From positions 1-64,000 of the forward strand of contig JAIMAY010000010.1 of assembly GCA_023511725.1 (NCBI GenBank): 64,000 nt of DNA. The letters run 5' to 3'. The notes beneath the pieces are model-generated. The model searched no databases and was not told the DNA's origin. It saw only the letters and a list, made by a program, of their open reading frames with translations. The position numbers and the translations under genes are program-made. The DNA comes from Alicyclobacillus sp. GTDB taxonomy: Bacteria > Bacillota > Bacilli > Alicyclobacillales > Alicyclobacillaceae. Below are positions 17,146 through 21,821 of the stretch, piece after piece. Within the stretch, counting starts at the first letter, position 1. Each line of letters begins with the position of its first letter.

Positions 17146-20694
<3,549 letters not shown>

Positions 20695-20876: not shown

Positions 20877-21821
20877 ATGACGGAGTTGCACGGTGAGGAT
20901 GGCGGTTTCGTGCTGGACAGGGAGCCCATCCTCCATCATCCGCGGGTGCGGTTCGTGTCCGACCTGGTGCCGGTGGAACAGCATCTGGCCGACATCGAGC
21001 ACTTCATCAACGTCTGCTTCGCATCGAGAGGATGGCGGGTGGCCCAGCATCGGCGCGTCATTGCCCTCCGGGCCACGGATCAGGACAGGCTCAGCTCCGC
21101 CTTTAAAGCCAGCCTCTACCTGGGCAAATACCGGGACATGGCGAACACGGAGCGGTTTCTCAAAAGCATGGTGGCCGCGGGGCACTCGTATGAGCCCATC
21201 CGCGGCGAGACGGTGCTGTTCCTTTACATCGCCGTGGCCAAGCCGGTGTACGACCACCTCGTTACATACACCGTGGGCCGTCCAACGCGCATCGCCGGCG
21301 GACAGCGCGCCAACGTACCCTGGGGATTCGAACTGCCGGTGGAGGCAAGGCATCCGGAGGAGTACGAGCCGGAGCTCGACCGGATCCGCGAGGTGATCCG
21401 GCTGGCCAAGCTCGATCGCGCTGAGCAGATGCAGGCGGCACGCGCCAAGCTGCCGGTGGGCTATGTCATGCCGCCATTCCTGCTCGAGTTCTCGGAGGAG
21501 GCGTTGATCAAGCACGTCTTCAAACAGCGCCTGTTCGAGCGTGGTGCGCAGGGGGCGACGGTCGAGATCGTCAGCGATATGCTCGAGGCGTGCCTCAAAG
21601 TGGACCGCGAGAAGTGGGAATTTCTCATGGACTATCATGGGCCGCACATCGCGCAGTGGGAAAAGGCGATGCGGACGCTGCGCAAGGAGCGGTACACACT
21701 GTCGGACCTGGCTGCGCAGCTCGGCATCTCCGCCGAACAGGCAGCGACCATGAATCTGTACGACCTGCTGATGGAAACGGTGGGGAAATTGCCGCCGTCC
21801 ATGTGGGAGAAACAGCGCTGA
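20877..21821 (+). CDS. Divergent ThyX-like protein (flavin-dependent thymidylate synthase fold)
   Basis: 314 residues, ATG at 20877 after AAGGCAGGTG. The order of segments matches ThyX: HSYEPIRGETVLFLYIAVAKPVYDHL (103-128) resembles the FSHP...E.F.F...SR region, and ARAKLPVGYVMPPFLLEF (189-206) with FKQRLFERGAQGATVEI (215-231) resembles the R-x-LP...F...R...AQ-E-I region. The hallmark RHRxxSxxxxSxR motif is replaced by GRPTRIAGGQRA (134-145), so canonical dUMP chemistry is uncertain. It has about 80 extra C-terminal residues. Function not proven; could be a functional variant or a repurposed relative. Confidence 0.5.
   Translation: MTELHGEDGGFVLDREPILHHPRVRFVSDLVPVEQHLADIEHFINVCFASRGWRVAQHRRVIALRATDQDRLSSAFKASLYLGKYRDMANTERFLKSMVAAGHSYEPIRGETVLFLYIAVAKPVYDHLVTYTVGRPTRIAGGQRANVPWGFELPVEARHPEEYEPELDRIREVIRLAKLDRAEQMQAARAKLPVGYVMPPFLLEFSEEALIKHVFKQRLFERGAQGATVEIVSDMLEACLKVDREKWEFLMDYHGPHIAQWEKAMRTLRKERYTLSDLAAQLGISAEQAATMNLYDLLMETVGKLPPSMWEKQR

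Follow-up and report, generated by a model that had tools for sequence, protein, structure and literature searches.

Thymidylate synthase is an essential enzyme. The ThyA form is described as yielding dihydrofolate and needing DHFR, whereas ThyX does not (PMC6514825), and ThyX is under study as an antibiotic target (PMC5954106). For the ThyX of M. tuberculosis, published work describes binding of the FAD phosphates and the flavin ring by the RHR motif, binding of dUMP by the first arginine of RHR, an upstream arginine, a later arginine and the serine and arginine of the S-x-R-Y motif, and a lid formed by the S-x-R-Y tyrosine (PMC6514825).

The 64,000-nucleotide stretch of Alicyclobacillus sp. 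DNA analyzed here (the window) encodes a protein, P0001, that is best read as filling the role of ThyX with the fold of ThyX, but not as a canonical ThyX, since it lacks the defining motif and escapes the family profiles. P0001 has in common with known ThyX (such as TM0449 of Thermotoga maritima) the fold, over residues 53-257, as well as G-H, F, AR..LP, a basic residue (K122), and an arginine and AQ near its end; the two are also alike in that thyA is replaced and in that DHFR was not detected in 12 of 13 carriers of the P0001-type gene. It differs in the absence of RHR, S-x-R-Y and E-H, in a new conserved pattern, in scores below the PF02511 and TIGR02170 cut-offs, and in length. Here the initial annotation needs correcting: instead of about 80 extra residues at the C-terminus, the match to T. 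maritima ThyX at 53-257 leaves about 52 extra residues at the N-terminus and about 57 at the C-terminus.

Several other described proteins share the fold. Thy1 of Thermus thermophilus (6j61; Z 14.5) also has an extra C-terminal domain, according to its entry title, but carries RHR and is not found by a sequence search with P0001. The atypical ThyX of Corynebacterium glutamicum (3fnn and 3ge9; Z 13.3 and 12.9) comes from an organism that depends on ThyA, as the entry titles state, whereas no ThyA was found beside P0001. PolB, a UMP/dUMP methylase of Streptomyces cacaoi, acts in antibiotic synthesis, whereas the P0001-type gene stands in for thyA. The KYV-type ThyX of a sister-family genome (G221; L026:1396-2151) resembles P0001 in that RHR is absent, with KYV and a longer loop instead, but it keeps NExSxRY, matches Pfam Thy1 with an E-value of 1.2e-34 and gives no match in the P0001 search; judged from its sequence, it deviates from the textbook motif in its own, separate way. 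No description of a ThyX without RHR was found in the open-licence literature, a scope outside which most subscription papers lie, and a 2004 paper by Liu and Yang reportedly mentions distinctive ThyX motifs in its title. A lineage that seemingly does the job of ThyX without RHR tests which parts of the chemistry are needed.

The gene and its locus

The genome that contains P0001 (2.66 Mb, 76 contigs, completeness 97.7%) places the gene next to those of an S15-type peptidase (minus strand) and a 6-phosphogluconate dehydrogenase (plus strand), and a purine-rich stretch, GGAAGGCAGGTGA, lies 5' of its ATG. The reading frame proved real and conserved. It is not a chance frame, because relatives 75-81% identical to P0001 are present in a further 30 family genomes and at 21 loci recovered by a scan of genome contigs (mainly Alicyclobacillus, in the same identity range), and because dN/dS is low, at about 0.02-0.05 in two close pairs of P0001-type genes, these being the two of six pairs for which a value was computable (three of the other four involved P0001). 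The surroundings are conserved as well: the gene at 17435-18730 of the window, which reads as mnmA-like from its putative product, has a homologue upstream on the opposite strand in 20 of the 21 genome-contig loci, and at the 21st (L013) the contig starts 484 bases before the match.

A ThyX fold below the profile cut-offs

An AlphaFold2 model of P0001 based on alignment A6, an input without any RHR-bearing ThyX, has a pLDDT of 88.9 and a pTM of 0.87, its weakest core part being the region of the lost motif (mean pLDDT 68 and 77, residues 131-150). A model built on the close relatives alone reached a pLDDT of just 49.6, a poor value, and was excluded from the fold searches. The top Foldseek match in the PDB is the ThyX entry 1o26_A (E 1.2e-5, TM (target) 0.69), and the remaining matches listed are also ThyX, PolB being included as a ThyX-fold relative. 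In VIA-align, residues 53-257 of the model superpose on T. maritima ThyX (1o28_A) with a Z of 14.7 and an rmsd of 2.7 over 193 residues; among the matches listed, the first 47 are ThyX-fold entries with a Z of at least 11.8, and the next, unrelated, has a Z of 3.4. The ThyX-like architecture proposed from the sequence is therefore also that of the predicted structure, and neither a different fold nor a clear match to another family came to light. The idea that the C-terminus forms a regulatory HTH domain was considered and dropped, the match to HipB/lambda-repressor HTH structures being weak (Z no higher than 3.4).

In profile searches for ThyX, a check suggested by the initial annotation, P0001 itself drew no match, whereas its relatives did. 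Searched alone against Pfam, NCBIfam, PHROGs and the PDB sequences, P0001 returned nothing usable and stayed below all family cut-offs, and against PF00303 (ThyA) there was no match up to an E-value of 1. Of the 41 members of A6, 22 match Pfam Thy1 (PF02511; E up to 0.01), 16 match TIGR02170 (thyX; E up to 0.1), and 14 and 6, respectively, match two PHROG thymidylate synthase families. Alignment of A6 with nine RHR-bearing ThyX sequences by hhalign gave a probability of 97.3 and an E-value of 2.6e-11, although this canonical set (A5) consists of the nine weak matches of profile A2 and was chosen because of that match, a bias from which the Pfam and structural results are free. The close-relative alignment A1 compared weakly with canonical ThyX sequences selected in this same way (probability 14.7, E 0.0018), and in searches of the PDB sequences the A6 profile found only two unrelated matches (E 0.36 and 0.5) and the sister-family protein L030 found none. 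Homologues from this sister family, which are about 250 residues long, lack RHR and are 35-37% identical to P0001, form a bridge to ThyX because Pfam Thy1 recognizes them as well (E 1.7e-10 for L030; a match in 12 of 12 genomes).

A conserved residue set in place of the RHR motif

The observation that started this analysis, the absence of RHR and the presence of GRPTRIAGGQRA where the motif was expected, holds for the whole group: this string corresponds to residues 134-145 of P0001, and RHR occurs neither in P0001 nor in any of the 41 rows of A6. All 41 rows instead contain K-x2-YDH-x3-Y...R-x3-G-x-RA, and R109, G110, E111, F115, K122, Y125, D126, H127, Y131, R138, G142, R144, A145, R189, P193, Q217, R218, Q225 and T228 are each present in 41 of 41 rows, an invariance that is partly a product of ascertainment, given that the scan patterns contained RG(E) and KxVYDH peptides. 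The same residue pattern is seen in proteins of the sister family and of family f54 that came from whole-protein or profile searches. H103 is found in 40 of the 41 rows, and the seven sister-family rows of A2 have an aspartate at this place. A6 comprises 16 of the 22 proteins from the window and the genome contigs (six close relatives were dropped) and 25 proteins from viral contigs, with near-duplicates such as L079, L099-L101, L107, L108, L114, L117 and L119 left out; some rows of A1 and A6 include a short stretch of residues ahead of the probable start codon (e.g. L009, L010, L013 and L019).

In all three MAFFT modes, R138 falls on the arginine of S-x-R-Y, the rest of which is not seen in A6, where the serine column holds P, N, D or T and the tyrosine column I, V or A. 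By alignment, the upstream dUMP-binding arginine of known ThyX would correspond to K122 and the S-x-R-Y arginine to R138, with RHR, the serine and the tyrosine apparently gone. The likeness to the ARxxLP...AQ-E-I region noted earlier holds for AR..LP (188-193) and for GAQ (223-225), but the canonical AQ-x-E-I reads AQ-G-A-T (Table 1). Of the two extensions that flank the core, the N-terminal one was modeled with a pLDDT of 96-97 at residues 11-50, and the sister-family proteins have about 20 fewer residues in the C-terminal one.

Table 1. Features of the P0001 gene, in window coordinates, and the evidence for each.
Feature	Position	Strand	Evidence
CDS of the RHR-less ThyX-fold protein P0001 (314 aa)	20877..21821	+	translation, homologues, model
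N-terminal extension ahead of the ThyX core, residues 1-52	20877..21032	+	VIA-align starts at 49-57 in Thermotoga ThyX rows
ThyX-fold core, residues 53-257	21033..21647	+	VIA-align, Foldseek
Invariant R109-G110-E111, near the place of canonical E-H	21201..21209	+	41/41 rows; alignment to canonical ThyX
Replacement signature K122-x2-Y125-D126-H127-x3-Y131...R138-x3-G142-x-R144-A145	21240..21311	+	41/41 A6 rows
T130-Y131-T132, aligned to the place of RHR	21264..21272	+	MAFFT local and global modes; gap in third mode
A188-R189-x2-L192-P193 (AR..LP), common to canonical ThyX	21438..21455	+	R189 and P193 in 41/41 rows
Q217-R218...G-A-Q225-x2-T228; R and AQ as in canonical ThyX, E-I lost	21525..21560	+	alignments
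Helical extension at the C-terminus, residues 258-314; conserved MW close to the end	21648..21818	+	secondary structure of the model

Replacement of thyA

The best evidence for the function of P0001 is the distribution of its gene among genomes. The P0001-type gene is carried by 31 of the 41 family genomes searched, in 11 of 16 genera, and all 31 copies are open frames of 307 codons or more that no internal stop interrupts. A thyA match was obtained in 11 of the 41, comprising all ten non-carriers, nine of which have the gene in one piece, and a single carrier (G443); thyA was not found in the other 30 carriers, and what G443 retains is a relic only. By these searches, each of the 41 genomes has one apparently usable synthase gene. 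The chance that ten thyA genomes would be exactly the ten non-carriers is 9e-10 if the genomes are treated as independent, which they are not. Because the division between carriers and non-carriers follows genera, it may go back to a few switching events. The search for thyA in the genome of P0001 itself, recommended in the initial annotation, found none, nor was there a Pfam Thy1 match in that genome, and PF02511 had no match in any of 19 family genomes, 13 of them carriers. As Pfam shows neither Thy1 nor ThyA in these 13 carrier genomes, P0001 fills an apparent missing gene.

Two thyA loci of the family have unusual structures. In the non-carrier G442, a group I intron (L123:848-1076, minus strand; RF00028, 71 bits) lies inside thyA, so that the gene matches in two parts. 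In G443 (A. mengziensis; L009), the thyA relic is a 200-residue frame without model positions 132-212 (L122:1631-2496, plus strand), followed in the next frame by a DHFR fragment covering positions 1-44 of 159; this thyA-folA pair is in decay, and the intact RHR-less gene lies elsewhere in the genome.

Outside the family, thyA was found in none of 12 sister-family genomes, ten of which have RHR-less homologues, and in none of nine genomes of family f54, three of which are known carriers of the RHR-less gene. The sole Thy1 match of the sister-family genome G228 is a 480-residue protein with two Thy1 stretches (L027:1465-2904). The single-contig f54 genome G089 has no thyA and apparently belongs, among the 199 genomes searched, to those without a P0001 match; with both lacking, either another synthase is present there or the P0001 search missed it.

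Folate and salvage context

Within a subset of 19 family genomes, DHFR was found in all six thyA genomes versus 1 of 13 carriers. This absence of DHFR from carriers is the genomic proxy for a tetrahydrofolate product; in their DHFR pattern the carriers resemble ThyX organisms, not ThyA organisms, as is to be expected of ThyX-type chemistry. Among the 12 sister-family genomes, one (G227) has DHFR. Two genomes, G213 and G227 (L069 and L070), combine DHFR with an RHR-less gene and have no thyA.

Thymidine kinase was found in 8 of the 13 carriers. Salvage by this enzyme was considered as an explanation of the missing synthases and was dropped, the kinase not being found in the other five, which include the single-contig genome G205 along with G207 (85% complete) and G214 (82% complete).

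Proposed activity and alternatives

P0001 can with good confidence be regarded as the ThyX-fold thymidylate synthase of its bacterium, most likely forming dTMP from dUMP in the manner of ThyX, a reading built on the computed fold, the homology, the replacement of thyA, the coupling to the absence of folA and the phage context. In such a reaction, methylene-tetrahydrofolate would be the carbon source, a bound flavin, the presumed cofactor, would relay both the carbon and the electrons, and the enzyme, which may be a tetramer, would release tetrahydrofolate and not dihydrofolate. With the RHR clamp gone, R109-G110-E111, K122, Y125-D126-H127, Y131, R138, G142 and R144 probably rebuild the cofactor/nucleotide site, and P0001 is best read as belonging to a lineage that is sister to ThyX and differs in this rebuilt site. 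Of the two possibilities raised in the initial annotation, a remodeled active site accords with a ThyX fold in which the RHR region is altered in a conserved way; another substrate is not supported, as the P0001-type gene takes the place of thyA, genomic evidence that points to the conversion of dUMP to dTMP. The FAD and dUMP ligands of known ThyX appear, from the alignments, to be missing in P0001, and methylation of dUMP by the same mechanism may thus not be taken as assured. A bolder proposal, which we put forward tentatively and hold to be possible rather than probable, is that of a third active-site solution, in which the FAD clamp would have been swapped for a different, strictly conserved set, with another flavin, another mode of FAD binding or another mechanism as the result, in an enzyme that would be the essential synthase for the majority of a bacterial family and is carried by phages.

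That the protein is a ThyX-fold thymidylate synthase in which FAD is not the carbon carrier, a different flavin or none being used, appears unlikely. The RHR residues, which hold FAD in known ThyX (PMC6514825), are absent from all 41 sequences and a new invariant set is present, which would suit such an enzyme; but two arginines that bind dUMP in known ThyX have K122 and R138 as their aligned counterparts, and the lack of detectable DHFR in 12 of 13 carriers suggests that tetrahydrofolate is not oxidized, in keeping with an outside reductant such as a reduced flavin. Quite improbable is a ThyX-fold enzyme that modifies another nucleotide, like PolB or as a dUMP hydroxymethylase, with dTMP made by a further route. 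This alternative draws on the rebuilt active-site motif, on the presence of PolB (4p5b and 4p5a, Z 13.2 and 12.9) among the structural matches, and on the copies carried by phages, but it would require a second synthase of another sort in every carrier, where no intact thyA was found in 31 carriers, no Pfam Thy1 in the 13 searched, and no thymidine kinase in five of those 13. A degenerate, inactive ThyX paralogue, which the loss of the signature residues might suggest, is highly implausible in view of the uninterrupted frames in all 31 carriers, the dN/dS of 0.02-0.05 in the two close pairs, the invariant alternative residues, and the failure of the searches to find a second intact synthase in carriers.

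Distribution in bacteria and phages

Searching 31 near genomes with P0001 gave matches in 23: its own family accounts for 13 (of 19 searched) and the sister family for 10 (of 12). Farther afield the gene is sparse: P0001 matched 2 of 199 phylum-wide genomes, its own (G000) and G050, and profile A2 matched 13 of 398, with strong matches (E below 1e-130) in G000 and three genomes of family f54 (G050, G333 and G355) and nine weak ones (8e-6 to 9e-4), all RHR-bearing. A plasmid search returned no match. G050 holds three RHR-less copies (L023, L024 and L025); some of these are probably prophage genes, to judge from the apparent presence of two of them at viral-contig loci L074 and L075.

Among 50,697 phage records, one matched, that of Alicyclobacillus phage KKP_3916, whose homologue is 63% identical to P0001, was deposited as hypothetical, and follows nrdA, nrdB and a gene for a dUTPase-domain protein. 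A word search of the main text of the KKP_3916 paper (PMC10297869) returned no instance of thymidyl-, ThyX, ribonucleo- or nucleotide metabolism. Viral contigs contributed further loci in overlapping sets, 9 found with A2, 24 with A3, 4 with L078 and 1 with L076. In 6 of 9 phage and viral loci (L072, L073, L078, L080, L104 and L110), the neighbors examined included no nucleotide-metabolism gene, and two of these loci, L104 and L110, have replication genes near the homologue. At L076, a dCMP-deaminase gene lies downstream of the homologue, and at L105, a dUTPase gene lies upstream with one small frame between. The nrdB gene of KKP_3916 is itself divided in two by a gene for an HNH endonuclease (L071:8961-10846), as expected of a mobile element.
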